64,000 nucleotides of DNA from Zopfochytrium polystomum (lineage: Eukaryota; Chytridiomycota; Chytridiomycetes; Chytridiales; Chytridiaceae). The notes under the pieces were generated by a model. That model searched no databases and was not told the origin of the DNA. It worked only from the letters and a program-made list of their open reading frames with translations. How positions within the stretch are numbered: position 1 is the first letter of the stretch; every line of letters begins with the position of its first letter. Positions 32,900-63,670 of the stretch are shown here, piece by piece. The position numbers and the translations under genes are program-made. The stretch covers positions 310,001 through 374,000 of the forward strand of contig JAIVFJ010000042.1 in assembly GCA_025765615.1 (NCBI GenBank), in the 5' to 3' direction.

Positions 32900-35880
32900 G
32901 TCAGAGGCCAAGTAGTGAGGTCAGTCGCTGGTGCTGAGACGTCAAGAGTGGTTTTGTGAGAATGTCTGCGATTTGGTCACTGGTTGGTATGTAGCGTACA
33001 GTGATCTCTCCAGTGGCTACGCCCTGTTGGAGGAAGTGAGCACGTATGTCAATGTGTTTTGTGCAAGCATGTGTGAGAGGGTTGAGCACTAGTGCGATTG
33101 CAGATTGATTGTCCTTGAGGATTGGTAGTGGCCGCTGTGCAGGGAGTTGCAACTCTGATAATACGGCTAAGAGTCATTGTGCTTCTTAGAAGGCTTTAGA
33201 GAGTGAGTAGTATTCTGCTTCTGTGAAGGATAGTGATACTCAATGTTGTTTGCGTGAGACCCAAGAGACAGCAGTGTCCATGAGGAAAAGGACATATCCA
33301 GTGCGCGATGTGCAGTCTCCAGGTTCGCCCCCATAGGATGCATCAGCGTATGCAGTTGGTTCAAGGGTATCGTTTGTGAAGAGCTGTGGCAGCTTGTGGC
33401 TTTGCCTGTAGAATAATCTGTAGTCCCAGGCGTCTCGGAGGTAACAAAGCAGGCGGCGGAGAGCATTGCAGTGGCACTGGCATGGCTTCAGTTGGAAATG
33501 GGAAAGCACATTTGTTGCAAATGCGATATCTGGTCGAGTTTGTCTTGCAAGATATTGAATTTTCATGAGTGTGGATCGATACCAGCTTGAGTCGCGCTTG
33601 CTGAGTTTGATTGACGTTTCGTCATGCATAAAGGTGATAGACGTTGGAGTTGATGCAATATCCAGGTCATCCCACATTTTCTCTTGAGTGAGAATTTTCC
33701 TGGTGTATTCGTCTAGGACCATCCAAATGCCTTTGGTGTTGCACTCGAGGTGGATGCAAATTACTTGGCTGACAGTGGTTTCCTCGAGAGACCTGCTGTA
33801 CTCAGCACAAAAAGCATCCTCAATTTTTGCAACGAGAGCTGGGGTGTTGGCCATGACATTAATGTCGTCGACAAAAACAAAAATGATTTCAAATGTTTGC
33901 TGCTGAGGGCTACTTGAAAGAAGAGGCAGGGTTCAGCAAGAGATTGGTTGAAGCGGAGTTTCTCGACAATGAACTTGCAAAGGGTCAGGAACCAGTTGCG
34001 TCCAGATTGATGAAGTCCATAGAGGCCCTTGAGGAGTTTGCAGAATAGTTTCTTTCCATCTGGAGTGAATTGCTTGTGGCTTTTTGGTGGATGCATGTAG
34101 ATGACTTCTTTGAGAAAATTGCACAGGTAGGCTGTGTTGACATCCATGCTGTGGTACTTGAGGTCAAAAGCAAGGCTGATTGCAATGAGCGTCAGATGAC
34201 CTGGATCTGGACAACAGGAGAAAAGGCGTTGGGTGTTTCCACATGTGACAAGACAGGCTTTCCATCCAGCCAAAAAGGCATAAACCCACTTGCAGAACAT
34301 TGCGCATTTGCCAGGAGGAAGAACTGCCCATTCCCAGACCTTGTGCTCGTCCATGAGAGAGTGAAGTTCCTCAAGCTCAGATGCAGTCCATTCTTTGTTG
34401 TAGTATGATGCGTGGGCTTCCTTGTGGGAATGTGGCACTGGTGGAAGTTGGGATTGGTGGATTAGTTCTTCAGGGAAGTGCTTTGGGAAGTGTGGTTCTG
34501 GTTTGGCTGATGCAAGGTAGAGTTGCAAGAGATGGTGAGTGATTGTTCAATTTAGAAGTAGCTTGTGAAGTCCACTTGGTACATCTTTGATGTTGACAAT
34601 GACAGATGGTGGAAGTGGTGATTCAATTACAGGTTTTGGTTCAGTGTTGATGGATGTTGCTATGTGGTCTGCCATTGGAGCTAGGCTTTCTTCAAGTTTG
34701 TCTTCATCTTCACCCTTGTCTTCATCTTCACCCAGGATAACAGCAAATGTGTCAGGTTTCCAACCATAGTCATCATCCTCATTGTCGTCTTCGTTATTCT
34801 TGGGGAAGAGTTGGGGTTGATCTAAGGTATTTGTTGATGATGATGGCAGCTGTCCCCCCCTGGAAGCCTGGCACAGTTGCTGGTGAGTACTAGAGGAGGG
34901 AGCACCATCAGGAGGAGAGTTGGATAATCAACAGAAAGAGTCAAGTGGTGGCTCGACAGGCTTGAAAGAAGGAGAGTTGTCAGTTTCAGGAAAATCTGTA
35001 AAATCATCAGAGAGAGAAGTTAAAGAAATCAGAATTAAGAGATTGAAGTTTAGTGTCGCTGTGGACAAGGCCAGGAAAGACATGTTCATGCAAGTTATAG
35101 TGGCGTGTCCGAAGAATGGTCCATGCAGCAAATTCGTTGATTTCTGTCAGTGTCTTGCCAGTGAACATGTCATCAGAAGAGTTTAGGTTGGACGACATTG
35201 CATGCGCATAGTGATGATCTGCTGCAGGAGAAACCAGTAGCTGGAAAATTTGGAGGAGTTGCTTGACAGTGCAGTGGTGACAAATAGTGACTTTAGGAGT
35301 TGTTTGATGCTGTACTTGATGGAAAAATGGTCCAGGATAGAAGATGCGTGTTGCACACAATGCTTATTGCAAGCTGATTGACGGACGAAAAATTCTGAAA
35401 TCAGAATAGCAGGTTGGCACCATTGAAGAGCCACTGTGTGCCAAATTTCAGGCTGAGAATCGACGTTTTGGTGGTGTTGTCCCTTGAGGAGTGTTGGAGA
35501 ACGAATGGAGAGCAATTTGTGTGCAGCTGGGGTGACTTGTCACACAAGAAAGGACAAAATGTTGGTTGGAGGTAGTGGATGTCCGACTTTTGGACCCTCC
35601 TTATCAAAATCGCTTGTAGTTAGGCATCGTAGCCAACGCGCTTATAACCAATTGAAAGAGCGGAAGCAGGCAAAAAGAGCTTTGTAAGGGCGTCCTGTGA
35701 TCGCTTCTCCCTGTCAAGGCAATGTCACGCAAAGTTGAGGAAGCGTTTTCGACTTCGGAGGCCAATCAAATTCTGGAGAGACAATGTAGAGAGCTGCGTT
35801 ACAGCTTGTTTGAAAGAGGAGAATCATGACTTTCAAATGCACTATCGCAAGCCCAGATTGAATGGTCAGTGTAAGAGAGG
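32900..35880 (-). mobile_element. Ty1/copia retrotransposon copy B, minus strand (RT-RNase H; gag-PR-IN deleted)
   Basis: From 35880 downward come a leader/LTR-like region that matches copy A (35875-35165), a very short gag-side remnant, the Pro/Ser-rich integrase-RT linker (35110-34670, also matching copy A), and RT and RNase H (34528-32901). The gag, protease and integrase core present in copy A (about 19350-17110) are absent here. Copies A and B therefore have complementary deletions. Confidence 0.8.
32901..34528 (-). pseudogene. copia reverse transcriptase / RNase H
   Basis: The minus-strand ORFs contain EWTASELEELHSLMDEHKVW, DLKYHSMDVNTAYLCNFLKE (block with the first catalytic Asp), KLLKGLYGLHQSGRNWF and a VDD-containing FVDDINVMAN across a frame junction near 33850. 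Then come RPDIAFATNVLSHF, AYADASYGGEPGDCTSRTGY (RNase H) and ILKDNQSAIALV...HIDIRAHF and DILTKPL. Two to three frame changes separate the pieces. All diagnostic copia RT/RNase H blocks survive, but an intact protein would not be made. Confidence 0.85.
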
Positions 35881-36660: not shown

Positions 36661-39600
36661 TCAGCAAACGTGTTGCGAATCATGGCAATGGCGTCGGCAG
36701 CTGCAGGGCATTGCCAGACATGAGGATAGGTGGGTATGAGCAAGGTCAGCAGGGAGGAGGGGCACGTCCATTGGTTGAAAGCAGGGATTCGTGAAGGGAG
36801 CTGGATTCAAAGTGGAGTGGCGGGAGGTGAGGAGTGGGAAAGGTGTGGGTGTGAAAACGGTGGTGGGGGAAGGTGAGTTAACAAAGAAGATGGGCTGGGA
36901 GGGTCGAGTTGCAGTAGCAGTTGTGCGGCTGCTGATGGGGACTGTGTAGGTGGAGTGTGCAAGGGAAGTTGGATTGTAGGGAGAGATGTGCTTGCTGCAG
37001 GGGTAAGAGAATGGGGGGGAGCCAATGGGGCAGCCAAGGCATTGAACCAAGTGGAAATTGTGGGAGGAAGGGTGAAGGCGTTCAGGGAGCCTGGAGTAGT
37101 GATGAGAAAGGAGTTGGGGGTTTGGGAGTGTGTGAGTCCAGTTAACAATGCAGAAGAATTCCACTTGTGGTGGGGTCATCAGACGGAAAAAACTGCCACG
37201 AGCAAGGGGGGGATGGTGAAGGGGATCCAAAGAAGATGGGTAAAAGGGATTGTAAAGAGGACCATCAGGAGGGCTGTGGTAAAAGACTGGAGAGCCAAAG
37301 GTGGGAGCAGCAAAAATAAAGGTCTTAATGATGTGGTACACTTCACAGAGTTTGTCAGGGAGAGAGCTGTCTTTGTAAGAAGGACTGATGAGGCGGAGGT
37401 CAAAAAGTTGTTCAAAAAAGAAGACTGAGTGTGAATGGAGAGTGGGAAGCACTTTGAGAAAAATATACCAAGGAACTAATGAGTTGATGGAGTGAGCATG
37501 AACAGAAAATAGGGGTGGACCAGAGTATTGGAAGGATGTTTGTTGGTTAAAAAGGAGGGGAATGAGAGACTTGGTGAAGTGTTTTTTTGGCTGGGACAAG
37601 GGTAAGGGATGTGAGAAAACTGGAGCTCCAGAGGCCAGGTCAAGTTGGAGGCGGTGCATCATGATACGGCTTATGTGGCCAATGAGAGAGGGGGAGTTCA
37701 AGCGAGAGTTGAGGTCAACAATCATGTCAGAGCAGTATTCATTGTAAAAGTCAGGGAAGTTGTGGGTCATGGGGTGATGGAGAAGGGCATTGGGAAAAGA
37801 GGTGCAGTAGCCAACCAGGCGTTTGAAGGTTTTGCGACAGAGTGTGGTGAGGTTGTTGAGGAAAGTACAGGGGAGAATGGCAGTTTTCCACAGAAAGCGG
37901 ACACGTGGGAGGAGAACGTTACGGATGAGGTAAGAAGCAATTTTGTCACCCATCTTTTTGTGTTTGATAATGTCGAGAAAATTGGTGGTGGTGGAAAGGA
38001 TTTGCTGCCGTGCTGCTGAGCTCATACCGTCTGTTGTGAAGTAGTTGCCTAGGTGTCGAAAGGTGGTGTTTGGCGGGTGGATGGGAAGGACTGTGGTGCC
38101 CCAGTTGATGGTGGTAGGTGCTGATTGCGGGGTGTTGACGGTGGAGATGAAGATTTTCTTGGTGTTAGACTCGATGTCGTTATGTGACTGGTACTCAAAG
38201 AGGAGGTCAGCCTGAAGCTGCAGATCCTCCAGGGTGCTGGAGAGGGTGTTGGTGTCGTCGACAAGGGCAAAGCCAGTAACAGAGACAGGGGGTGGGGGGT
38301 TGAAGAATTGGACAGGGAAGTTACGAGGGGTGGGAACTGAGAAAATGAAACCGGTGGTACAGCGATCAAGAACGCAAAGAACAGGGTCCCAAAAGATACG
38401 CCAATCAAGGGGTCCCTCAAGGGAGCCTTGCTGAATCATAGTGCCAATGGGGAAGGAAGGGGATGGGCCAAAAGCTGTGATGACAGAGGAACAAAAACGA
38501 CATTGGGAATTGACACGCATGCGAACATAAGAAGAGGGGAGGTGAATACGTTCCCAGGAGGCAATGAGGCCAGCAACAGGGGCGCTGTCAAAAGCTTTCT
38601 TAATGTCGTTGAGGAGAAGGTATAAGGGCTGTTTAGTGGAATGGGCAAGGTCAAGGGCGTAGCGTACAAGGTGGAGAGGCGGGTCAGGAGAAGAGCCAGG
38701 TAGGGCAGAGAAGTTGCGACCAAGGAGTACATTGTGAGAAGAGAGGATGGAAGAGATACGAGAAAGACGGATGGATTGAACAACTTTGGCAGCAAGTTCG
38801 CAGAGGCTGATTGGACGGAGGTTAGTGATGTCACCACCCCACGCAGCTTTCTTGGGTATGGGGAAGATGGAGGAAGATGCCCAAGAGTCTGGGATGTCAA
38901 GGAAGAGAAAAGAGCGAATGATGAGGGAGGAGAAGAATGCAAGAGCATCAGGACCAGCTGCGAGGAGAAGCTCTCTGGAGATTTGGGAGGGGCCAGGGGC
39001 TTTGTTTGAGGCAAGAGATGTGAGAGTGTTTTTGACGTCGTTGGCAGAAGGGGGCAGCATAACCTTGGAGAAAAGATCTGGGGGGATGTGGGGACGGGGT
39101 TGCATCTCAGAGTGAAATGGAGAGGATGGTGGGAAGGGAGTGAGGGTACGAGGGCGAAACCAGTGTTCAACCTGTTGTTGGCAGATACCAGGGACAAGGT
39201 CAGGATCGTGGGTGATTGAGGGACCTTCGGCAGTAGTATAGCGAATGTGGTCGATGCTAGAGTTGCTGCGCGTGCGGTTGAGGATGTTGTTGAGGACAGT
39301 CTTTATCTTGCCAGAAGAGAAAAGGTCGTGTCTATGTGTGAGAGCTGTGGCAATGTCCTCCATTTTGTGCTTTTCTGCTGCCTGGCGTTGGGCACGGTAG
39401 ATGGCCTGGCGATGGCGGTTGAGGGCGGGGAGTAAAACATCACGATAGTCAGTTGTGTCCAAGAAGCGGGCTTTGTACTGAGAGTGGATGTGGGACAAGA
39501 AGGAGTAAGACTGATCTGCGCCCCACTCAGATGGGGTCAAAGGAATGGAAGGGAAGATGTTAGCCAGATCATGCGCAGGGTCTTTGGCAAGTGCCCACAG

Positions 39601-40766
39601 TTTCTCTACTTTCCAACGTGCAACAAGGAATGGTTTGGCACGGCAATCTATCTTTGGCGCTACTGAGGAGGTTCCCTTGTGAGGAAGGAACTTTTTGCCA
39701 AGCCGAAGCAGTAACTCGTGAAATGATGTGGAGAGTGTGTCAAGGTGGCTGACGAGGAGTGATGCACGTTCTGGGGAGGGGTATTGAAAGGGTAGGGATG
39801 GAGAATGGAGGAACTCAAGCTCGGAGGGGAGAAGAATGCTGTCCAAGGCTGCAAGGGCTGCTGAGAGGGGGGCAAGCTCAACTGAGACGGCTGAAGTGTA
39901 ATTGTCGAGTTGCTCCTCTGAAGCTTCCAGGGGTTTGATGACCTGCCGGCGCAGAGGGGAGAAGGGAAAAGTGTGGAAGGGGGAGGAAGCAAGAATTATG
40001 TTGAAGGGGAGGTGGTCTGAAGTGTCAGTGAGATGGGGCTCTTCAAGTGGAGAAGAAATGTTAGCTTCAGTGACGTAGTCAAGAGCAGGGGGTGAGAGCC
40101 AAATGCTGCCAAACGAGAGGAGTAGGAGCCAGCAGTGTGTGTTTAAGAGGGTAAGTCTGGGTGCAGGTGTCGAAAGGAATCAACAAAGCCTTTCAGGGAG
40201 AGGGTGGGGAGGAACCCATGGCGGGAAGTAGGTGTGGGGGCTCTGGTGGAGTGGTCAAGGGGGTCAGTGATGGCATTCCAGTCACCAAACCAGTAGGCTT
40301 GGTGGGGTGAGGTGGAGTCAGATGAGGCAAGAGAGTTGCACCATTTTTGCAAGTCAGGGAGTTCCTCAGATTGGGGGTCAGCAGGCCAGTAAATATTTCG
40401 CAGGAGGATGGAGCGTCGAGCAAAAGATAAGGTGAGGGCAATGGCACGAGTTCCAAAGTGCGAGACGTCAGTGATGTGTGGTGCCAGGGAAGATGAAATG
40501 ATGAAACCAACGCCAGCGTGACGGGAGGGGGTGGAGGATATGAAGAAACCTTTGTAATTCCTAGTGATGTGACGAATGGAGTGGGTGGCCTCTGTGTCAG
40601 AGCAGCCAGTTTCTTGAATGGCAAGGATGGTGGTTTTGGTGTGATCGAGCCAGTGGAAGATAGATGCAGCCTTGGTGGGGAAGGCACGACGGATGTTCCA
40701 AGTGGCAAAGCGAGGGAGGGGTGGTGGTGTTGGGGGTGGTGTGCTAGACACAGGGCTAGTTGACAT
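36661..40766 (-). pseudogene. LINE ORF2: APE endonuclease and reverse transcriptase, one frameshift
   Basis: The endonuclease part (40766-40143) has RFATWNIRRAFP, AIQETG (catalytic Glu), GVGFIISSSL, FGDWNAITDPLDHSTR and GFVDSFRHLHP. It stops at 40143; the next frame supplies IWLSPPALDYV and SDHLPFNIIL (the catalytic SDH) and runs without stop through the RT to 36661. RT blocks are SNKAPGPSQIS, NLRPISLCELAAKVVQ, LLNDIKKAFDSAPVAGLI, QQGSLEGPLDWRIFW and FALVDDTNTLSS (catalytic DD), followed by the thumb. A Cys/His motif (HVWQCPAAADA) continues past 36661 in another frame to about 35960. A single missing base near 40145 is the only break in the catalytic part. Confidence 0.88.
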
Positions 40767-40789
40767 AGTTGACTAAGGGGTGCAGGAAG

Positions 40790-40808
40790 TCCTGCTAATA
40801 ATGTCTCT

Positions 40809-40845
<37 letters not shown>

Positions 40846-42058
40846 GAGAAATAAGAGTGATATCAATAGCAAAGGGGCTTTCACAAAAAAAAGAATAAGA
40901 ATATTGGTCAGTTGAGGCAGTGTTCCTGGTTTTTGAGGCAGTTTTTGGGGCAGGTTTGGGGGCAGGTTTGGGGGCAGTTCTGTTGGGAGGAGTTGAAGAG
41001 GAACTGGAGCTTGAGTGTGTGGTGACAGCTGATCGAGCTGGGACAGTAGTAGTAGAAGAAGGTTCAGCGGAGGAACGGTCGTCAAGGTCCTCACCAATCG
41101 GGTCATTGTATTTCAACCATTCTTCAATTGTCCGGAGGCGAGAGCTTAGGAGCTGGGTGGTTGTGTCCACTGTGGTGAGGCGGCTGTCCAATTGTGCAGT
41201 GAGTGGCTCCAGTGTGGTGACTCGCTGATTTAGGTTGTGGATGGCGCCAGCATGGTTTTTGAGTGAAGTGTCCACGTTGGCTGCAGCAGCTGCAAGTCTC
41301 TGAATGTCGTGGTCCACCTTTGCTAAGCCGTGTTCCAGTGCTGCAGGGATTGGCTCAAGTTGGGAAAGCTGAGTGGTGAGTTTTTGGATGTCAGTGTGTA
41401 CTGTTGTCTGATGCTCTTTCAGCTCTGTGCGCAAGGAGGTCTGTTGTGCGAGAAGCTGTTGCTGGATGTTTTCAAGGACCTTCAAAATTGATTGCAGCTG
41501 TGGAGGAGGGACAGAAGGGGGAGCAGGCAGGACAGGTGGGGGAGTTGTGGTGTCAGGAGGGGCCTGAGCTGTCTGGCTGTTGTCGTTGGAATCTGCTGAA
41601 GTGGCTTGGTTAAGGAGGGAGCCAGAGGGGCGGCCAGTTTTGCAAGATTGAGAGGTATGGTTGGAGTTTCCACAACGGCGACAGCAGGGGAAGGGAGTGA
41701 AATCTTCCTTTTGGAGTGGGTGAAATGGGAGTGCACGGCCATTGAAGACAACTGATTGGTTAGTTTTTTGCAACATCAATGCGCGGGTTGTAAAAAGAAA
41801 ATGGGCAGATGACGAAAGGCCAGCAGTGCCCTTTGCTGAGTTGAAGAATCCTGGAATACAAACTGACGTGCACCCAAGCTCATATTGGATGGCCTCACGG
41901 TCATAGATACTTGTGGAGCGACGGATGTTATAAAGGTGGGGTGGAAGTGGGCGGCCCCGATACTTTCGTAAGAACACCCCACAATATCCAACGCGCGCTT
42001 CGCGACGGTTTTTCTGTTTCTTCCTTCCTTTCCTTTCTTTCTTCTTGTTCCACCCCAT
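40790..42058 (-). CDS. LINE ORF1 protein (nucleic-acid binding, CCHC, coiled coil)
   Basis: ORF1 begins MGWNKKKERKGRKKQKNRRE and carries a CX2CX4HX4C knuckle, CRRCGNSNHTSQSC, at about 41645-41690. A long heptad-patterned coiled coil (HTDIQKLTTQLSQLEPI ... RLTTVDTTTQLLSSRLRTI) follows, then Ser/Thr/Pro-rich sequence. Such proteins coat element RNA. The open frame runs through a 35-A tract (plus-strand T-run 40811-40845) read as poly-Lys and then overlaps the endonuclease ORF out of frame to 40193. The true stop is probably just after the A tract; its length decides the frame. Confidence 0.75.
40811..40845. repeat. Poly-T (minus-strand poly-A) tract inside the LINE
   Basis: About 35 consecutive T lie between LINE ORF1 and ORF2. 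Internal A-tracts of this length are unusual in LINE coding DNA. Confidence 0.8.
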
Positions 42059-43717
42059 CGCAACTCGACTTTAGCAAAAGCCCCCTCACCCATTGCAAAA
42101 AAAGAAAAGAAAAAAAGGGCGGCACGTACCGGTGATACTTCGAAGTAAAAGTAACTCGAAATTGGATCATCAATCGCAACGTTTCTGCCATGTGATGGGT
42201 TTTCTGCGCGCACACACAGGTTTGTGGGCGGGGGGGCTCGGCCGGGTGGGAAGTTTCCCCAGCGCAACTGAAGCAACACATACAGAACACGACACGCGAA
42301 GCAATTAAATATGACAAGAAAGCAAGAACAGGGAAAATTATGCTGAATGAAATCCGCCCACTTCTGTCCGTCGGCTTCGACCTTGGCTCCGTCTGTCCAG
42401 TCGAGGCGGGGCGAAGGCGGGGGCTTTTATCTCTCTCTTTCTTTCTCTCTCCAACGAGCGCGAAAATGCGGGGCACGTGAGCGTGGGTGTGTGTGTGCAA
42501 ATAAAGCATCTGCTCTTCACGGGCCGCCACACAGGCGGGCAGGCGGGTGTGGCAAGTGAAAAGCGGCGCAGCCACAACAGCAACAACAACGGCCGGGGGG
42601 GGGGTCGTGGACTGTCCAGCGAGGCTCGACGCCGACCCCCGCCGACACCGAATTCGACTGCCAAGCGGCAAGCGACGCAGGCGTGCCTGTGCCTGGGTAG
42701 GATGCCGATCGCGCGCGGCAGCCCACAGGGACGCTGAGAGAAAGCCAGACAAGGAGAGATATCTTCGAAGCGTGTGTGTGTGTTTGTGTTCTGTGTCTGG
42801 TTGGAAAAAAAGGAGAAAACGACAAAAAACAAGATTTTCGTCGACAAGGTCAGTGCAGAGACGAGATCGATCCGAACGCAGCCCCTCCGTCCCTCGCCCA
42901 GATCCATCCCATCCATCCAGCGATCGCCCTCCGCCCCGCATCCCTCCCTCCTTTTAGAGGCTCGCCGGCACCATGGACACATTGCTCAGATGGATCAGGC
43001 GACGTCTGGATCAGGTCGGATCAGGCCTGTGAGCGAAGTACGAAATTCTTGTGCCCAACCAACCGCCGAGAGACAAACGACTTGCCGTCGATCCATCCAT
43101 CCACCCACACAGCCGCCCTCCGACCCTCTCTCCCTGCAAGAGCACCGGACCACTCCAGACGCATCGATGCTCAGATGGATTCAACCATGAGGGCAACAAC
43201 TTCGATACAACAACAACACAGTGAGCGAGCAAACCTCTGTCCCTTGTTTGAAGTCAACGCCACTAACCAGCTGACTGTACCGCACCCCTTTCAACAAACA
43301 GCGTCCCCTCTCTTTGCAAGAATCAAGATTTCGTTTCTTGTTGACGAGGATCAAAAGCGGTAAGCAATCTTGGGGGCGGGGGGCCAATGTGATAATCAGC
43401 ACTCATCTTTAATTGTTTCATTTGCTCTCCTATAAACTCTTGAACACCCAACAGTCCCATCAAATGAATATCTCAGGCTCACTCCCCACAACTGCATCCC
43501 TATTTGCTCTTTTTCCCCCCTCGTTTTGTTGCACTAATCAGGTTCTGCAAACTGACTAGCCAACTCCTTCTAAACTAACACTGAGTGCTTCTGAAATCCC
43601 TCTTCCTCTATGAAAATCTCCCTTCAAAAACTCTTTCTCATACATTTCAAATTTCACCAAATCTAACATTCAAATCTTCTTTGCAGAGCCCATCACCAAT
43701 TGTGCTTTTGTAGGAGA
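42059..43717. other. Region upstream of the LINE and of the NLR gene; no gene recognised
   Basis: The first part may include the LINE 5' leader. GC-rich, CATC-rich DNA follows (42890-43110), then a drop to AT-rich sequence at about 43400. A candidate splice acceptor (TTCTTTGCAG, ending 43686) lies 31 bp before the NLR start codon and may end a 5'-UTR intron. ORFs of up to 337 codons on either strand have no protein-like character that I can support. Confidence 0.5.
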
Positions 43718-46700
43718 ATGACCAGCCAAACAACTGCGTGGATTGTGGCATTTGTTTACAATGACCTTGGACGGAAGATCCACGTTCCAACCAACACGAG
43801 TTTTGATGGCTTGCGTCAGCTTGTGGCTGCAAGGTTCCAGATCTCTCCTGCCATTGAATTGGTGTATGTGGACTCTGCCACCAGCGATGCAATGGTCCTT
43901 GACAACAGTGATGATCTGCCCAGTCTGCTTTCTCAGAATTACAAGTGGAAAGTAAGGTTCTTCCTTTTTTTTGTCCTTGTTTCTGGCTTTGTTCCAGTGT
44001 GAATTGAACCTCTCAAAATTCAAGGTGCTCGCTGTGGGCTCTGGTGCCACTAGAAATGTCGCCCCTGCTGCTGCCGGCACAAGCAACCCAAGTGTCATGG
44101 CTGCTCCTGCTGCTCTTGCTGCTCCTGCAGACACTGCTGCCCATGCTGCTCCTGCTGCTCCTGCTGTAGCTTCTGGTGGGAACTCAACTGTGGCTGCTAC
44201 TGTCGGTGACAGCTACGATAAGAGGCTTCCACTGAAGAAAGGTGAGGAATCTGATTCAATTCGTTGCCTCAATGGCTCATGGCCCACTCTTTGGCATGTT
44301 TTCTTTACTCTCCCAGATAAATGGATTGAGCTGATTCCAGATGACTGGGAATGCAAAAGCAGTGTTCAAAAACACCCCTTTTTCATCAGGTTTGTTCCTC
44401 ATTGCGCTTCTCCCTGTGGCTTTCTCTCAAATCCTTGTCAGCTACCAGCAAGCTTCTGAGGCAGGTTTTGCGAGGAACCTGTTTGACAGAATGAAGATCG
44501 CCCTGTTGGAAGCTTACACTGGATCTGTACTCACTGAGGAGTCCAGGATGGCTGGAAGACATGCTTTTTGGGATGCAGAGTGCCTGGCCTATGCCCAGGA
44601 TTGGGGAATCAACTTCATGTCTGGACTGTTTCACTCCTCACTCATCATTCTCCTGTGTTCTGATGCAAGCATGATGAGAATGCAAAAGGCTGACAAAGAG
44701 CCTGACAACTGCTTGTTGGAAGTAAGTTTGTTATCCCCATCAGTATTCCCCTCTGACAATACGTTTAGTGGGAGCTTGCACTTCAGATGAAGAAAGAAAG
44801 AGGCCATGACATCCTTCCTGTTCTTCTTTCATGCCGAGATGAGGCAACCTTGGCATCTGGCAAAAAGGCAAAGGTCATGGTGGACTTCAGCACCTTTGAT
44901 CTCAAGAAGTTTCCTGACCACCCCCATGCCCACCCTTTAAGTCCTGGCCTCCAATCTGTGTCTCAAACAATCAAGATGATTTTAGAGCTGAATGGGCCAA
45001 AGGCAAATCCTGAGAATGATGTTATGAAGTGCGTGCCAACACTTTTTTTTTTAAATTACCTCTTTTATTACTTACACATGCCCTTCTTTAACCTTCACAG
45101 GGTTGTGACTGAAGCCAGAGAAGTGTACAGTCGCCGTAAGGCTGAATTGAAAACTCCCAGTCCAAGCCAAGATATTTCACTTTCCAGATCTAGTTTGGCT
45201 GAATTGGAGAACTGGTTGTCTCCCCTGTCTGAATTCATGTATCTCGAGAGGGAGGCTCTCCTGAAGAATGTGCTTTCTGGATCGAGGCATTGGTTGCTCA
45301 AGAGAGTGTTCAAGTTTCTTTCTCCAGTTGATCCCTCTGCTGCCAGCGCCAACAGGGTGATGTGGTTGAAAGGAGTGGCTGGAGTGGGCAAGACTGTGAT
45401 GGCAGCCATGGTCTCCAGGGAGCTGCAGGCCCAGGGAATGCTTGGTGGCTTGTTCTTCTGCAAACATGATGACGATCGTCGCAGCAGCGCTCGGAACCTG
45501 GTCTTGACTCTTGTGTTTGGTCTTGCAAAGTTCAGTCTTCAGTATGGAGAGATTCTGCTTCAAGTCAAGCAAGACAATCCAGATATTCTGTTCAGATCTG
45601 TGTTTGAGATGATGAAAGTATTGCTTGTTCTGCCATTGCAGAAGGTTGTTGAAGGCAGGAAGCTGAATGTACCTGTGGTCCTGGTTGTGGATGCCCTGGA
45701 TGAGTGTGGAGCCATTGGAAAGAGGAATGAGATTCTGTCTGTGTTTCAAGAGCTGGACAGGCTGCTTCCTGATCATGTGAAGATGTTGGTGACAGGACGC
45801 CCTGAAGTAGATATTGTGAAAGCCTTTGAGAAGATTCCTTTTGAGGAGATTGAGCCAACTGCTGAAGAGAACACACAGGACCAGATTGATTTCACAAAGA
45901 ATTATCTCAGAACCCTGAGTATGAAGCAATATGTGATTGATGGGGGGTCTGAGATTCTGGTGTCAAAGTCTGCTGGAATTTTTGTCTGGCTTGTGACTGC
46001 TTGCACTTATTTGCAGAAATTAGAGACTGAAGAAATCACTCTTGAGCAAATTCAAGACCTTACCGAGGGTGACAAGATGGATGGAAGCATTGACTTGATG
46101 TATGACAGAATATTCAATGGCATCCTTCAGTCCATCAAAGAGAGTTCTATGGAAAATCTTCTCGGTGCTGTGTTGTCCATCATTGTTCTTGCCTATGAAC
46201 CTCTGACTGCAGCAGCCATTGTCTCACTGCTGGACAAGGAGAAACCTGAAAATGTGATGAGGTGCATCCGGATGATTGATCCTATCCTTGTGCTCGATGG
46301 TTCCACCAAGAAGATAAGGATTTTCCACAAGTCTGTTAAAGACTACCTGATTACTCCTGAAAGATGCAAGTTGCCTCTTCAGATTGACCTGAAAAGTAGC
46401 CACTCTGAATTTGCAAGGCTGTGCATCAGTGCACTGGACGAAAACCTGAAATTTAATATGTGTGATCTGCCATTCTCAGAATTCCATTCTGAGATTCCTG
46501 ATTTTGATGAGAAAGTGCAGAAAGGAATGCCTGAGCATGTCAGATACGGAGTGAAGCATTTCTGGGAGCACTGCTTTGACTCAGGAGACAATGGGCTACC
46601 CAAACACAGCTCAAATAATGAGAGGAATGTCCAAGAAGATGGTGATAGTGATGGTGATAGTGATAAAAGGTTGTTTGATGCTGAGGAAGACACTCAGGAC

Positions 46701-49201
46701 AGCAGTCTGCGTCAGCCCGGAAACATGAAACTTCCTCCACAAAATTTTGAAGAGGCCACTAAAGATTTGCAAGGACATGCATTTGAGAAGCCTGTGTCAA
46801 CCACTCCATCGTTTTCACTTGATCAGTCTCTCTTTGCTGAATTGCAAAAATTTCTTGTGCAACACGGACATCACTACTTGGAAGCATGCAGCCTGCTAGA
46901 CTTTCTCCATTTGGTGATTCCTGCCATGACAAAACTCCAGTGTCTTGCCCCTATTCCTGAAAAGAAACAACTGTACACCCTGATGGAAGACATGAAAAGG
47001 GTTTTGCAAAAGTTTCTCATTCCACTCAGGGCATCTGCGTTGCACTTTACTTCACTGCTGTTCCGTTCTCCCCAAGTGACTCTGAATTTTTTAAAACATT
47101 TGTTCAGAATGTGCCTGGAAGTGTGTCATGCCCCAAAGTTGTAAAGGGGCAATCACAATCTTGGCCTTCCTGTTTGAATATTCTTGAGGGACACACTGAT
47201 TTTGTCAAGTCTGCAGCATTCAGTCCTGATGGGCAGTTTGTTGTGTCTGGAAGTGGGGACAAGACAGTCAGGATTTGGAATGCTTCCACTGGTCAGGAGC
47301 TGCATAAAATGGAGGGACACACTTCTGCTGTCTCCTCTGCAGCATTCAGTCCTGATGGGCAGTTTGTTGTGTCTTCTGGAAGTTATGACATGACAGTCAG
47401 GATTTGGAATGCTTCCACTGGTCAGGAGCTGCATAAGCTGGAGGGACACACTCATTATGTCTCCTCTGCAGCATTCAGTCCAGATGGGCAGTTTGTTGTG
47501 TCTGGAAGTTATGACAAGACAGTCAGGATTTGGAATGCTTCCACTGGTCAGGAGCTGCATAAGCTGGAGGGACACACTGATTTTGTCGAGTCTGCAGCAT
47601 TCAGTCCTGATGGGCAGTTTGTTGTGTCTGGAAGTGGGGACAAGACAGTCAGGATTTGGAATGCTTCCACTGGTCAGGAGCTGCATAAAATGGAGGGACA
47701 CACTGATTGTGTCAAGTCTGCAGCATTCAGTCCTGATGGGCAGTTTGTTGTGTCTTCTGGAAGTTATGACAAGGCAGTCAGGATTTGGAATGCTTCCACT
47801 GGCCAGGAGCTGCATAAGCTGGAGGGACACACTTCTGGTGTGTCCTCAGCAGCATTCAGTCCAGATGGGCAGTTTTTTGTGTTTGGAAGTGGTGACAAGA
47901 CAGTCAGGATTTGGAATGCTTCCACTGGTCAGGAGCTGCATAAAATGGAGGGACACACTCATTATGTCTCCTCTGCAGCATTCAGTCCAGATGGGCAGTT
48001 TGTTGTGTCTTCTGGAAGTTATGACAAGACAGTCAGGATTTGGAATGCTTTCACTGGCCAGCAGCTGCATAAGCCGGAGGGACACACTCATGACGTCACC
48101 TCTGCAGCATTCAGTCCTGATGGGCAGTTTGTTGTATCTGGAAGTTATGACATGACAGTCAGGATTTGGAATGCTTCCACTGGTCAGGAGCTGCATAAGC
48201 TGGAGGGACACACTCATTATGTCTCCTCTGCAGCATTCAGTCCAGATGGGCAGTTTGTTGTGTCTGGAAGTGATGACATGACAGTCAGGATTTGGAATGC
48301 TTCCACTGGTCAGGAGCTGCATAAGCTGGAGGGACACACTCATTATGTCTCCTCTGCAGCATTCAGTCCAGATGGGCAGTTTGTTGTGTCTGGAAGTGAT
48401 GACATGACAGTCAGGATTTGGAATGCTTCCACTGGTCAGGAGCTGCATAAAATGGAGGGACACACTCATTCTGTCTCCTCTGCAGCATTCAGTCCAGATG
48501 GGCAGTTTGTTGTGTCTTCTGGAAGTGATGACATGACAGTCAGGATTTGGAATGCTTCCACTGGTCAGGAGCTGCATAAGCTGGAGGGACACACTGATTG
48601 TGTCTCCTCTGCAGCATTCAGTCCAGATGGGCAGTTTGTTGTGTCTGGAAGTTGGGACCAGACAGTCAGGACTTGGAATGCTTCCACTGGTCAGGAGCTG
48701 CATAAGCTGGAGGGACACACTGATTGTGTCAAGTCTGCAGCATTCAGTCCTGATGGGCAGTTTGTTGTGTCTGGAAGTTGGGACAAGACAGTCATGATCT
48801 GGAATGCTTCCACTGGCCAGGAGCTGCATGAGCTGGATGGTTATCAATTCACAATGTCTTCTGGATTTAGTGCCGATGGGCAATATATTGTTTTGAAGGA
48901 CATAAATGACAAAAGAATGTTCGTCAGGCTTGGAACAGCATTGCCGGTGGGCAGAAGTGATATCACACTCACAGGTCCAAGCCTGGCACACAATTTTAGT
49001 TCACGTAATTCGTCAGGACAGCGACTGCAGAGTGAGAAAGGGGCTCTTGAATCTGTGATTTGTGATGGTGTTTGGTTCAACTTCAATGTCACAAAAGTCT
49101 GTTTCTGGCTTCCACCCGAGTTTCGTGGTAGATTCCAGCTCCTCTCAAGACAAAATATGTTCACTTTGGGTCCAGGCTTTTCTTCTGCCATACATTTTTG
49201 A
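43718..49201 (+). CDS. NLR-type receptor: PB1-like, TIR, NACHT, 14 WD40 repeats
   Basis: Exons: 43718-43951, 43998-44389, 44442-44721, 44787-45028, 45101 to about 47075, and 47108-49201; introns are 46, 52, 65 and 72 nt, the last junction unresolved. About 1,740 residues. Domains: PB1/ubiquitin-like fold (residues 1-90, KIHVPTNTSFDGLRQLVAAR); Ala/Pro linker; TIR (about 205-330: FFISYQQASE, FWDAECLAYAQDWG, DNCLLEMKKERG, ILPVLLS); NACHT (about 470-600: Walker A GVAGVGKT, Walker B VVLVVDALDECG); helical region with an acidic DGDSDGDSD stretch; and 13 near-identical WD40 blades plus one degenerate blade. By family knowledge NACHT is the oligomerisation switch, WD40 the sensor and TIR an NAD-cleaving effector, so a cell-death or self/non-self role is inferred. 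Alternative for 47076-47107: a 32-nt intron, a longer intron from about 47001, or a frameshift. Confidence 0.88.
47184..48830 (+). repeat. WD40-encoding tandem repeats, 126/129 bp units
   Basis: Thirteen consecutive units encode EGHTxxVxSAAFSPDGQFVV, then SGSxDxTVRIWNASTGQELHKx, with near-identity at the DNA level. Units 2, 5, 7 and 11 carry one extra Ser codon (SSGS). A fourteenth unit starting DGYQFTMSSGFSADGQ is degenerate. Fourteen blades would form two seven-blade propellers. Confidence 0.93.
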
Positions 49202-57387: not shown

Positions 57388-60300
57388 ATGGAAGTAGAAG
57401 CAATCTGTGTCGCCTGTCTGGATCTGGAGGAGAGCGCACATGAGCATTTGCTTTGATTATTTCTTACTAATCCTTCAAAAGAGTTTCGTTGTGTCTGTTG
57501 TTTTCAGTTCTCACACAGAAGCCCAGACGAGATTGTTTCGCACTGTGCATCATGTGACGGTCCCAAAGCAATTGGTGCAGCCAGTTTGTCAAGAGAGCTT
57601 GAAAGTGAAGATTTGGACTCAGATTCAAGTTTGGTTGCAGCTCTGCAGATCCCTCTTTCAGACAAGACCTCAAGTGTGCTTTCAAATTCAGATCCTGTTG
57701 TGTCCAGTTGCTTAGCTGATAAAGTAATTGGAGCGAATTTGGTTGAGAGTGGTTAGTAAACCGTGGGTTGTCTGTATTTGTGCTTGATCATTCAACTGAA
57801 AATTTCTGTTTCAACTTCTCTTTCACTTTTTTCTCTGTTGTTCCATGTTTTTTGCAGGGATGACACTTGCACATTGCTCAAGGATTCAAGATTCAGAGGG
57901 TGATGGTGTTTTTGAAGTGGATGAAAATGCTCATGATCTGGAAGCCATGGATACTGATGGACCTGGTTCTGTCACATCAGTATGTGTTAGTAGTGGTAAG
58001 TTTAATTAATTCTCAGTTTGCTTGCCTTAGTCTGACACATTTTGTAGAAACAGCCCTGTTGGAATCATCCCAAGTTCACCCAAGTTCAGATTCAGCTGTG
58101 AGCATTGGCTCTGGTGATTCCAGAATGGCTGGCAATGATGATTTGCTTGCTGTTGAACATAGTGCTGATTCCAACCAAGATGGTGGGTGTTGTGATTTAA
58201 TCGCTTGAATTTCAAGCTGTTCTTCTGTACTCACACATTTTTCATACACATCTGCCCTGGTTTCCTACCCCCCATTGACAGATGTGAGGGAGCATGCAGC
58301 GTACAATTTCAAGTACAGGGCCCTGTTGTGCAAGCACTGCAAGGCTGCAGTGAGCCCAGTTGATGTCAGAAAGCATGCTCGCAATGTTCATTCAAACTTG
58401 AACCCAGAGATCCTATCAGAGCTTGTTGTTCAGCTGGTGACTTTAGCCACTGAGCATTCAGCCTTGCACCCTGCTGAGCTTGCTGTTCCTCTCTCCACTG
58501 AGTTGAGAGTGCCTGTTTTAGATGTGCGTCCAGGCTTCAAGTGCACTGGATGTTCTGCTTTGTTTTTGACCAAGACTAGATTCCGGCGGCAAGAATATCA
58601 TCTCAACTCCAGATGCATTTGCACAGTGGACTCTATGGTTCCTGTGAAGGCTGCTCAGCGCTGGGCACGCTTTTGTGGGTTGTTTGAAGTGGAGTCTGGT
58701 TGTGTCAACTCTGTGCACAATCCGTCTGATAATGACAATGTGCTGGATGTAGCTGCAAGGGAGAGGGATTCTGGTCTACTGAGTATGCTGAATGAAAGCG
58801 TTAAGAATGTCAGGAATCTCTTTGCAAGTGATCTGGAAAGTTTGACGGGGCTCCCCAAATGGTATCATCCAACCCTCAAACTGGGCAGAAATGCACCAAT
58901 GGCAACGGCTACTCTCTGGTTGTGATCTAAGTTTGATATCTTCCTTGGCGCAGCAAGCAGAGAAGAAGGCCATAAGCACCTCTGACGCTGAAACGTCTCT
59001 TGTGCTGAAGGAAAATCTGTTTGTCAAGTTTCTGCTTGAGGCACATGTTGAAGCAAAGGATGCGCCTGATGTTGTGAGATATGCACTCAATCATGATCGG
59101 CCAGACAATGAGGCTGCTGGTCGCCGGAAATTTGGTGTTATGGACAAAACTGCCCGCGATTATGCAGTGCCCTTTGTTGGTATGATCAGGATATTTCTGC
59201 GAGCCTACAGGCTTGAGCCCGAAGAGCTTGCAAGGATACCTGCAGTACAGATTGCTTTTTTCAAGCACAAGGAAAGAATTGAGAGGCTTGTAAATGCTGA
59301 AGCTTTGAACCAAGTACGCACAGCATTCTTTCAGTTTTGTGCTGCCCTCATCACAGAATTTGATGGTGGTGCAAGAAAACCATGCGCCGCAAAAATTGCT
59401 ATTGCTTGTTTGGGTGTGGATCCAAGAAGGAAGCTTGCATGGTGCGAGCCGTGGAATTTTAGCAAACCCCTCTCTGCGCTGATATACCACTTCAGAAGTG
59501 TGGGGTACTTTTGCCTCAAAAAGGCCCATGTCACTGTGGCTGGAATGGCTCAAATCGGCGACAATAGGAGTGTGATGGGCAAACAGGATGATCCAGCCAA
59601 TGTACCAGCTCCATATGATGATGATGACCTGGAAGGGCTTGTGATTGATTTTATGGAGTTTCGCTCAAAGTTTCTGGTGCTGTCCTGTCAGCCATGTGTG
59701 CGACTATTTGCACAGAGCACGAGCTTACTGCTTCAAGACAAAGAATCCTTCCATAAGCCAGTTTCACACAGACACTGAAGGCTTCCATTTTGCAGGGAAG
59801 CATATCTTCTTCAACTCCTTCAGGCCTGTTGCCAGAGCTATGGTGGAGGAATTGCTGGAGGACTACTTGAAAATTAGCCTGCACAAGGAGACGGGCACCA
59901 AGCCCTGGAGTGTGGATGTGTCTGCTTTGAAGGATAATCTGTGGGACTCCACCAATGGATTTTCATTTGTCTCTCATCCTGATAATTGCAATGCTGTCAG
60001 CAGCTGGACCTGATTTGAAGAAAAGGGCTGTTGGATATTTTTTTGATGAGTCTAAATTGAGGAATGAGGGGCTGGCTGCTGAAATTGGACAAACCTTCCC
60101 AAAGGGATTGAAGATGGAAACGTCATTGGATTGGCTTTCAGATGTGCGTCAGTTCAAAAAGAGTTTGGCCACATGTATCATGTTCACTGCAGGCGCTTCA
60201 AACAGGGCCACAGAGCTACTGGCTGCCCTGGTGCAGAATGACACTGATTGGCCTCGAACTCTGCGCCTGTTCAATGGCCGGGTTTTCCTGCAGCAAGGCT

Positions 60301-63300
60301 ACAGTAAAAGCATGGCAAAGAGGGAATCAGTTGTCCTGCACTTTTTGCCAAAAGCTGTGGGCCAAATTCTTGTAGACTGGCTTGTGCAGGGGCATCCTCT
60401 GCACATGATGATTGAGACTGTTGTGTTTCAGCAGGAGTGTCCCCCCTTGCTGTTTTGGGCCAAGGGAGGGGTTGTGAAGCCTGATGATCTGTCGCAAGAC
60501 ATGTCACTCAAGACTGCAGCATATGGCCTTGGCGCTGCCACTGGAATACGCATGTTCCGGCAAGTGCAGGCCTTTGTGATAAGTGCGAAACTTGGCTCAC
60601 GTGAGGCAATGCACCTGGGATCTGCTGGACCTGATATCAACGAGGAGGAAAACTGATGTATTGGCATATGAGGCTGAGCTTCTCCATGAGCTTGAAAGCA
60701 CAGAGCAGCTTTCCCAAGTGGGTGTGGCACTCACCTTGCAAGCAGGCCACTCTGTCAAGACTGCCCTCAAGTCCTATGGGCTGACACAAGAGGATGTTGT
60801 TGGTGTCAACGAGTCAGTCATGGGGGCCATTCTTGCTGCTTCAAACAAGTGGCACCAATTCTTGGGGCTTGGGGAAGACAGTATTGTGTCCAAGTCCGCT
60901 GATGGGGATGATGATGCTGCTGTGGTTGTCAGTGCAATGAATTTTGAGTCATTGAAGGTCAAAGCTTATTCAGACAAGGATCACCTCAGGGAACCCTCTT
61001 GCATAGTGCACCCAGTTTTGAAGACTGGCCCAGTTCCAAGCTCTGTGCTTACTGCATTACGCTCAATTCACAGTGGAAAAGATATTGTCCTCAGGGCAAA
61101 TGGTGGTCAAGCGAAGGCCATTTTCTTTGCAAGCACCAGCAGCAGCAGCACGCCCAAGCATTTGCTTGCAGCTATCCCGACAGGGACTGGAAAAACAGAA
61201 ATATGGCTTGGTCCACTCAAGGCAGAAAGAGAGCGTGGCAAGCCACTCTGTGTTTTGTTTTTGACGCCTTTTGTTGCACTGGGAAAGGATATAGTGCGGA
61301 GGGTTGAAAAGGCTGGGCTTGAAGCGCAGTATGTGAGCCACACATCCCTGAACCTTGTCACTATGTCCACTGCTGTGATTGTTATGACTGTGGATGCCGC
61401 TCTAAACGCAGAGTGCATCAAGTATGCCCTGACATTGATTGAATCTAGTAGACTTCAAAGACTTGTCATTGATGAAGCCCATGTGGCACTCTTTGACTCT
61501 TGGCGCACGATATTCCAGGATGTGAACAACCTTGGACAGTTGGCTGCCAAGGTACCTTTTCTCTTGACAACTGCAACTCTGCCTCCAAGGCAGGAGGCCA
61601 CTTTGGGTGCAATTTATGGGTTGCAACAGCTGCATGTTGTGAGAGCCCCAGTTCAGAGAGCAAATGTTAGATTGGAAGTGTGCAGAGTCACTGGCGGTCA
61701 TGCTGGGATTGAGTCGCATCTGAAGCCTCTAGTGAGAGGAGTACTTGATCGTGGTCAGTCTGTGATGGTCTTTGTTACCAGCATGAAGGATGCTGTTTTG
61801 TGGGCCGGAGCCTTGAACTGTGGCGTAAGTGTTGAAAGTTCCCATTTGTTCAATTATTCTTGAAGTAAGTAAAGCTGACTGTTTTTCTCAGTATTATGTG
61901 TCTAGAGACGGACAAGGAGATGAGATATTGGACACTCATCTTTGCAATTTTTTGAGTGCAAGATCGAAAATCATTGTTGGCACAACTGCCTTGTGTGCTG
62001 GAGTGGATTGCCCCGATGTTGGGCTTGTACTGCACATTGGTCATCCCTTCTCCCTGACTCAGTGGGTTCAAGCTGCAGGAAGAGCAGGAAGAGCTAGGAG
62101 AGATGGTTCAGTGGCTTGTGCTCAGATTGTTTTGCATGATGATGGACAATCACGGCCTGAGGAGGAGCCCTATGAAGGCATTTTGTTTAGAGATGATGCA
62201 GTTAGCTCGGATCGAGATGCAATCAGACAGTTTATTTCCAGAAACCAGTGCAGGAGGATGACTATATCCAGCTTTTTTGACACCAACACTTTTTCGTGCA
62301 GTGAATATGGCCAAGATGCAGGCTGTGACGTTTGTGACGCTGCCAATCACTGGGAACCCAGCCTGCTGGTTCCTTTGGAGGCCAGCAGCAGAACCAATGC
62401 CGGTGCAGATTCCACGATTAGGGATCTTTTTTCGGCAACTGCAGAGAATGCTCCTCCTGCTTCTTCTTTTGGAACGGCAGACAGCAGGAGCAAGGGGAAA
62501 GCAGCTTCTTCAGAAGACCAAATCTCTTCTACTGGACCCTTTGATCTGTCAAGGCCTGGCCCCCCCATCGCTCCTTCTCAAGTTGGAGGAGTCAAGTTGC
62601 TCAGAAGCCAGCAGGAAATCTCTGGAGTGGGCACTCTTTTTCCTGCCCCAGAGTTCAATCGTTCCCTTGGGCCAAAGAGACCAAGATTTTTCTTGGAAGC
62701 AAACAAAATACAAGACGAAGATGGAGCCATAGCAAGTCAAGTTGAAGGGGAGCTCATTCCTGCAACAAGCCAAGCATCTGACTTTGTTCCACCAAAACAC
62801 CCTGTGCTTCCAATGGGCATCAGGTCTGGTGACACATTGTTTCCAAGATTTATGTCAGCCACCGCCCCAGAGGCAGGAACATTGAATAGTGTTGAGATGG
62901 GTTCTGCTTATGATGGTGTTGGGGGGTATGGCAGTGCTGCTCCTGGGACATATCTTCCATTTGATTTGCCCTCTTTGGTTGGAGCATCACCACTGCCAGC
63001 AAGTGCTGAAGGCCCAAGTGCTCTTCCTTCCTTTGGAGAAATCGGCTCTAGATTTGATTTCAGTGCCATCAGCCACAACACACAAAGGTTTATTCCAGCA
63101 ACTGGAAGTGGGTTTGTAAAGCAAAGGCAAGCACCAGCTGCAGCTCCTCCTCAAGTTGGAGTGATTGGAAACCCTCAGATGAAGGCCAGGACCATCCTTT
63201 GTATCCAACAAGCATATCGCTCACATGAAGGTGATTGTGGAGTTTGCCTTGCGTTGGGCGTTGCACCAGGGCCAGCACGAATGCATAAAGGTTGGAGGAG

Positions 63301-63670
63301 TTGCCCTAACTCTGATGCCACCAAAGAATCAAACGTGTGGGCTAAATTTGATGATTCTGCCAGCTGCTATTTCTGCTACCTTCCTCAAGATGTCTGTGGT
63401 GGACAAGGAGTCAAAGGAAAGTGCAGATTTCAGAGCAAGTTTTTCATTTTGGATATTCTCAAAGTGCTTGCAACACACCGACATGCTCTTGACAGAGCTC
63501 AACAACTGATGACTTCACCAAAGGCACTGCCTGGAATGAGCCAGCTGCATATTTTGTACCCAGAAAAAACTGGCTCTGCTCCAGCCAGCTGGTTTAAATT
63601 GATGCGGTGGAATGGCCTTCAGGTCTACCCTGCATTTGTTATTGTAGCTGCAGTGATGTTTGCGCCATAA
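57388..63670 (+). CDS. Zinc-finger / tyrosine-recombinase-like / RecQ-type helicase fusion (four frame breaks)
   Basis: Clear exons start at 57508 (57508-57751, 57858-57995, 58048-58182, then from 58282); the first exon, perhaps ATG 57388 (MEVEAICVACLDLEE), is uncertain. An intron at 61825-61891 precedes the final exon, 61892-63670. Order: CxxC/acidic N-terminus; two C2H2-like fingers (LLCKHCKAAVSPVDVRKHAR, FKCTGCSALFL...HLNSRC) resembling the OrsD/DUF3505 module; a tyrosine-recombinase-like core (ASNRATELLAAL, IRMFRQVQAF, QAGHSVKTALKSYG); superfamily-2 helicase (IPTGTGKTEIW, VIDEAHVALFDSW, LLTTATLPP, GTTALCAGVDCP, QAAGRAGRARRDG); a Cys pair (GCDVCDAANHW); and a C-terminal Cys-rich domain (CGVCLALGV...CYFCYLPQDVC). 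Four one-base surpluses occur, near 58883, 59640-59690, 59960 and 60645. Related fungal RecQ-type genes are often subtelomeric and multicopy. The recombinase assignment is my inference from motif spacing; the first His of HxxR is Met. Confidence 0.75.

Follow-up and report, generated by a model that had tools for sequence, protein, structure and literature searches.

A family of putative PB1-TIR-NACHT-WD40 receptor genes in the chytrid Zopfochytrium polystomum, with one frame-broken copy

The HNWD proteins of Podospora (HET-E, HET-D and HET-R) combine a HET domain with NACHT and WD40 repeats, and are counted as five paralogues in the available part of PMC12881547. Plant TNLs (TIR-NB-ARC-LRR) place a TIR effector on a switch of the STAND type (signal transduction ATPases with numerous domains) and form a large family. 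In fungi, TIR domains are described as almost absent and limited to one species, the chytrid Rhizoclosmatium globosum, in the accessible sections of a 2026 preprint, which also report no fungal TIRs in the InterPro STIR clan (PMC13142454). A 2014 survey, available in part, did not find NOD-like receptors (NLRs) in chytrids (PMC4986451). TIR-containing NLRs of Chytridiomycota are mentioned in one sentence of the available text of PMC9815663, next to a TIR-like type in Pezizomycotina that is SEFIR-like; ‘PB1’ is absent from that text, and the available text of PMC7075850, which it cites for TIR in NLRs, contains neither NACHT nor chytrids. Here we describe a gene with PB1, TIR, NACHT and WD40 parts at positions 43718 to 49201 of a 64,000-nucleotide stretch (hereafter the window, at its full length) of the genome of Zopfochytrium polystomum (Chytridiaceae, Chytridiomycota; NCBI), together with its paralogues in that genome. 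An earlier note, made from the letters of the window, had placed this gene in a fungus and had called TIR effectors rare in fungi; the host is indeed a chytrid, and the preprint's single fungal species agrees with the rarity.

On balance, we favour the reading that the gene belongs to a family of putative ligand-gated NLRs (STAND receptors), built in the order PB1, Ala/Pro linker, TIR, NACHT, WD40 array and C-terminal block, and that the window carries one frame-broken copy. The family resembles Podospora HNWD in its NACHT and WD40 parts, near-identical repeats, same-spaced hypervariable sites and effector-like N-terminus. In contrast to HNWD, its N-terminus is a TIR_2 domain after PB1 instead of HET, its host is a chytrid, and it occupies 125 genomic places instead of five. 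With plant TNLs it shares a TIR effector on a STAND switch and a large family size, whereas it has NACHT/NPHP3_N instead of NB-ARC, WD40 instead of LRR, and an added PB1. The TIR or TIR-like NLRs of Chytridiomycota and Pezizomycotina are similar in that they carry such an effector on a fungal NLR. The PB1 segment resembles the PB1 of NBR1/p62 and MEKK in its Pfam match, its conserved basic lysine in strand 1 and its acidic stretch, but is fused to TIR and NACHT. No description of a PB1-TIR-NACHT-WD40 family was found in open-access PMC (PubMed Central) text, in agreement with the earlier note, which knew of none, and the Zopfochytrium literature found there included no paper on NLRs by title. 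We regard the family as a variant of fungal NLRs rather than a new kind of system, real and striking.

One TIR exon used as query gave 128 matches in the genome (all 140 of 140 candidates scored), corresponding to 125 distinct places on 98 contigs, a number that counts places, weak and partial ones included, and not genes. These places were at least 225 bases long in 110 of the 125 cases; by our own count 89 of the 128 rows exceeded 100 bits, and the weakest scored 25.6. Hence, the view of the window gene as a single unique gene was rejected. PB1 was present in 35 of the 37 unique fetched loci, the window included, and 20 of the 35 genome matches of Pfam PB1, each over the cut-off, precede a TIR exon of the family by at most 2 kb. 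All 20 long loci, which were picked by their TIR match, contained PB1, TIR and a whole or partial NACHT, while WD40 was found in 19; the C-terminal block had a tblastn match in all 20, partial in several. Of 50 records whose NACHT stretch was aligned, 46 show a Walker A motif; 14 loci were fetched twice, so that some are counted double. For NPHP3_N, 150 places were scored of 231 candidates. Within 2.5 kb upstream of these 150 places we found a family TIR exon at 92, another TIR_2 match at 38 and neither at 20, i.e., a TIR match at 130; conversely, 92 of the 125 family TIR places have such a NACHT downstream.

Inter-locus distances of PB1, TIR and NACHT were correlated (r 0.82-0.89 across 34 loci; none of 2000 permutations was as high), which suggests that the three parts have mostly stayed together. 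In paralogue pairs whose synonymous divergence (dS) was 0.03 to 0.6, the six PB1, TIR and NACHT segments had median ratios of non-synonymous to synonymous substitution (dN/dS) of 0.20-0.28, and judged from these sequences the three domains are under purifying selection. A protein recorded for Z. polystomum, P0001, aligns in two pieces with contig C118 of the genome at 100% identity. In the public gene model P0003, one protein comprises PB1, TIR and the first part of NACHT; another model, P0002, begins past the TIR, which stands upstream in its locus (L049). Several splice models are doubtful because of odd introns (L002/L032, L025, L026, L028, L029, L030, L040).

A subtelomeric bias was not supported across 37 loci (Kolmogorov–Smirnov p 0.61), nor among the 18 loci on contigs longer than 200 kb, of which 8 lay within 35 kb of a contig end against 3.4 expected (p 0.17). 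None of 10 family members matched a PADLOC defence family, and NCBIfam gave weak matches to the TIR-like FxsC for 6 of the 10 (best 0.0012), which in the single member with a listed score fell far under the cut-off. Peptide-pattern scans of genome and viral contigs, which can detect only close relatives, yielded 23 and 25 pattern matches, none of them a confirmed relative, and gave no support to a close source in bacteria, archaea or viruses. All relatives found by protein searches were from Z. polystomum. Two of these searches scored just the 8000 candidates sharing most words, and part of these words probably came from the low-complexity Ala/Pro linker, so that the lack of other species in the two is a weak negative. 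With the TIR alone as query, one protein was found among 597 candidates, again from Z. polystomum.

In the window, six exons at 43718-47144 on the forward strand, which holds all features of the gene, are spliced into an open PB1-TIR-NACHT protein of 1,044 residues. The five introns are short (46, 75, 52, 47 and 72 bases) with GT-AG borders, and their phases (0, 1, 2, 0, 2) are common to the window gene and close paralogues in splice alignment. Exon 1 (43718..43951), from the ATG to a GT donor, encodes the PB1 domain (residues 1-78), and exon 2 (43998..44241; splice model) encodes the Ala/Pro-rich linker; paralogue P0003 takes a later acceptor for this exon, equivalent to an exon start at 44025 in the window. 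The TIR segment starts in exon 3 (44317..44389; splice model) with HPFFI.., continues in exon 4 (44442..44721), which ends with DNCLLE and its presumed catalytic Glu according to splice model, Pfam and family alignment, and extends into exon 5 (44769..45028; splice model and Pfam), which holds the second TIR part (WELALQM..ILPVLL) and the next segment. Exon 6 (45101..47144; open reading frame and splice model) covers NACHT and a downstream segment, with the frame stop at 47142-47144. It includes the NACHT NTPase (NPHP3_N; 45288..45800, genome match C42:355285-355800), with Walker A at 45372-45395 and Walker B at 45675-45710, and a possible TANC1-like winged-helix segment (HTH_TANC1) at 46167..46418. 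Further downstream are 13 tandem WD40 repeats of 41-43 residues each (47186..48835; Pfam) and, by tblastn against paralogues, the C-terminal block (48836..49198; CWLPPEFRG..FQLLS..).

Part of what the earlier note had read from this locus could be recovered. The spliced exons do give an open frame, which contains the motifs cited by that note (FFISYQQASE, FWDAECL...WG and DNCLLE) as well as the two Walker boxes. A profile search of the conceptual protein, which that note had proposed, matched TIR_2 (residues 181-321; 31.1 bits, cut-off 28) and NPHP3_N (residues 427-597; 84.5 bits, cut-off 24.8), but the narrower Pfam NACHT model stayed under its cut-off (24.0 bits, cut-off 26.7), as did PB1, which is clear across the family but borderline in the window copy. 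Of the 14 blades it had counted, 13 are Pfam repeats and the last is, by our own reading, a degenerate repeat. No HET domain was among the 11 Pfam families listed up to E 1 for the window protein, NB-ARC scored 11.9 bits (under its Pfam cut-off of 23.5), and LRR was not among the families listed for the window gene (for the WD40 part, the best 25 of 73).

What does not hold for the window copy is a single reading across all four parts. The frame of NACHT ends at the stop at 47142-47144, while the WD40 repeats are in another frame (46961-49201), so that the C-terminal sensor is not in one protein with NACHT, and a single continuous reading frame through the gene was rejected. The break maps to 47030..47080. 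Over this interval an alignment was possible for 15 of the 20 long paralogue loci, and the window differed from all 15 by a net one-base change; hence, the window copy appears to be broken between switch and sensor. At family level the four-part architecture is right. In 16 of the 20 long loci, one frame runs through NACHT, the following segment and WD40; the frame also changes in L036 and L047, the break lies within NACHT in L042, and WD40 is lost in L038. Among 11 paralogue models, which are our own and not transcript-derived, nine, of 1,552-2,164 residues, extend to the C-terminal block, while L049 and L051 do not. The six PB1, TIR and NACHT segments of the window copy keep median dN/dS values of 0.21-0.34 against the paralogues, and the frame break would therefore be recent or an assembly error. 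From its sequence, the window copy is a predicted pseudogene, a sensor-less truncated gene or the carrier of an assembly error. If the break is real, its product would be only a sensor-less PB1-TIR-NACHT protein, or none.

The 13 WD40 repeats of the window have a mean pairwise DNA identity of 92%, and codons 5, 6, 8, 24, 26 and 42 (window numbering) each encode at least three different residues. Variability was further compared in 150 repeats (638 within-gene pairs) drawn from the window gene and 19 of its paralogues, with positions counted from the G of GH and 43-residue repeats aligned by dropping one codon; the repeat finder misses diverged repeats, and found none in L038 and one in L049. 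Amino acids differed in 48-84% of the pairs at repeat positions 3, 4, 5, 7, 23 and 25 and in at most 33% elsewhere, while synonymous-only differences stayed at or below 21% at any position. For het-d/het-e, the available part of PMC12222747 gives high dN/dS at positions 10, 11, 12, 14, 30, 32 and 39, and counts four positions as under diversifying selection. With a shift of seven, which was fitted and not taken from an alignment, six of these seven positions coincide with the hypervariable sites of Z. polystomum; 1 in 20000 random six-site sets matches the het-d/het-e positions as well at any shift. The pattern of variable WD40 codons fits diversifying selection.

All nine family members that were compared matched the Pfam TIR_2 profile at E <= 0.01, while PF01582 matched one place in the genome, outside the PB1-TIR-NACHT family. 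The Glu of DN[CV]LLE, to which the earlier note had drawn attention and which we take to be the catalytic TIR Glu, is kept in 35 of 36 loci and replaced by Asp in one. In a MAFFT alignment, which is forced and weak as evidence, it falls in one column with the Glu of two classic TIRs from this genome. By TIR_2 and these motifs, the segment counts as a TIR domain, whose fold would be flavodoxin-like. TIR_2 has 85 matches in the genome, 84 of them outside the exon set of the family, and 23 places score at least 66 bits. Locus L001 (G000:C52) encodes a classic TIR (85.6 bits) followed, by our own reading, by Sel1-like repeats in another frame. A second TIR-NACHT set (e.g., C18:430426-431567) was also observed: a NACHT lies at most 1.5 kb downstream of 37 of the 85 TIR_2 places, in frames of often about 405 residues and with no PB1 match nearby by inspection. 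Z. polystomum protein P0008 (1370 amino acids) has an N-terminal family-type TIR (42% identity), NPHP3_N, a second classic TIR and a P-loop near its end.

The assignment of PB1 is firmer than that of TIR, as judged from profile matches. The Pfam profile matched 18 of 20 family exons at E <= 0.1 (best 1.6e-9), and among solved structures the nearest relative was an NBR1 homologue through its PB1 domain (E 7.6e-4), followed by weaker matches to MEKK3 PB1 (E 0.08 and up). Lys20 is at least 90% conserved in 20 rows, an acidic DDDL-like stretch is present and the OPCA consensus is partial; presumably, an acidic OPCA marks type I and the Lys type II. Outside the family, L055 (G000:C115) is a PB1 gene that is NBR1-like with a ZZ finger by our own reading, and its product is a possible partner of the family PB1. 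By the same kind of reading, L056 and L057 encode PB1 proteins with a C-terminal hydrophobic stretch.

The mode of action of HET-E and of plant and bacterial TIR receptors is established, and by analogy with them we infer every step beyond the architecture of the family. The WD40 propellers would bind a changing ligand, which may be a product of a pathogen, a self protein that has been modified or a non-self protein encoded by another allele. Binding would free the NACHT, which would then bind nucleotide and oligomerise, bringing the TIRs together. The clustered TIRs might, by means of the conserved Glu, use up NAD+ or convert it, with cell death or a nucleotide signal as outcome. PB1 would act as a partner-recruitment module, e.g., for an NBR1-like protein, or would join receptors head to tail and polymerise the complex.

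Several observations weigh against this receptor reading. It is based on genome sequence and gene models, and the copy in the window is frame-broken. Equal-scoring TIR places (e.g., on C66, C191, C171 and C285) may be alleles, recent duplicates or assembly duplicates, and some of the places may be fragments. PB1 is lacking in L029 and L030, and falls under the Pfam cut-off of 23.6 in the window protein (residues 14-73; 19.2 bits in the whole protein, 23.5 as a lone exon) and, with 15.6 bits, in P0003. The winged helix of the window protein is also under its cut-off (21.6 bits, cut-off 27). NPHP3_N matches 9 of 14 control genomes as well, five of them over the cut-off, and is therefore not specific on its own. 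Furthermore, no solved TIR chain was matched by the family sequence profiles, and hhalign of the family TIR profile with a classic TIR of the same genome gave a probability of 1.1%, i.e., no similarity; membership of the TIR group consequently comes from TIR_2 and the motifs.

Four other explanations bear on parts of this interpretation. For the window copy taken by itself, it is quite likely that we are dealing with a decayed pseudogene whose break is functionally meaningless, or with an assembly error, in view of the other frame kept by every alignable paralogue and of N-terminal dN/dS values that make any decay recent or artefactual, although the 1,044-residue truncated protein could still work without a sensor. 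At the level of the family, the TIR might be a scaffold only, lacking NADase activity, that on activation would form clusters and draw in a further TIR or PB1 protein. Its distance from solved TIRs in sequence, the adjacent PB1, which suggests assembly, and the many possible partners among TIR_2 matches outside the family fit this idea, but the almost invariant Glu of DN.LLE and its alignment with the Glu of two classic TIRs, itself forced and weak evidence, speak against it, and we consider a pure scaffold unlikely. Still less likely is a family devoted mainly to allorecognition, i.e., to within-species non-self as in het-d/het-e, instead of pathogen defence: the high internal identity of the WD40 repeats and their hypervariable positions at het-d/het-e spacing point that way, whereas more than 100 places are far above the few NLRs used in incompatibility. 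Finally, it is very improbable that the PB1 call is wrong and that the N-terminus adopts a different ubiquitin-like fold, such as RA. Sub-threshold scores in the window copy and P0003, and weak matches in the exon set to Ufm1 (two members), RA (one) and TUG-UBL (one), speak for such a fold; the PB1 matches of most family exons and the NBR1 and MEKK3 relatives among solved structures speak against it.

The neighbourhood of the receptor gene in the window contains mobile-element-like and helicase sequences. Just before the gene, on the reverse strand, lies an element resembling a long interspersed nuclear element (36664-42070), with a reverse transcriptase reading frame of 1,172 amino acids (RVT_1, 44.3 bits) and a second long reading frame upstream of it. 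A copia-type RVT_2 is found at 33764-34546, also on the reverse strand. At 58209-63670 on the forward strand, about 10 kb from the contig end, an OrsD domain (37.4 bits) is followed by DEAD and Helicase_C, a helicase that is RecQ-like by our own reading.

With these paralogues, an expansion of TIR-NLRs is placed in an early-diverging fungus. Tentatively, and with less confidence than in the receptor reading itself, we suggest that Z. polystomum may be a non-Dikarya fungus with TIR-receptor immunity on the scale of plants, in which most NACHT receptors carry TIR, the PB1 of the largest branch polymerises receptors or channels activated ones into PB1-based, NBR1-like autophagy, and diversification of the WD40 sensors affects the sites known from Podospora het genes. 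Strain WB228 of Z. polystomum was a source of double-stranded RNA in a mycovirus survey, according to the available part of PMC7482067. Given this strain, a virus-related test system may exist for the species. The natural fusion of PB1 to TIR would allow the link from receptor clustering to TIR enzyme activity to be studied, and the function of fungal TIRs becomes testable.

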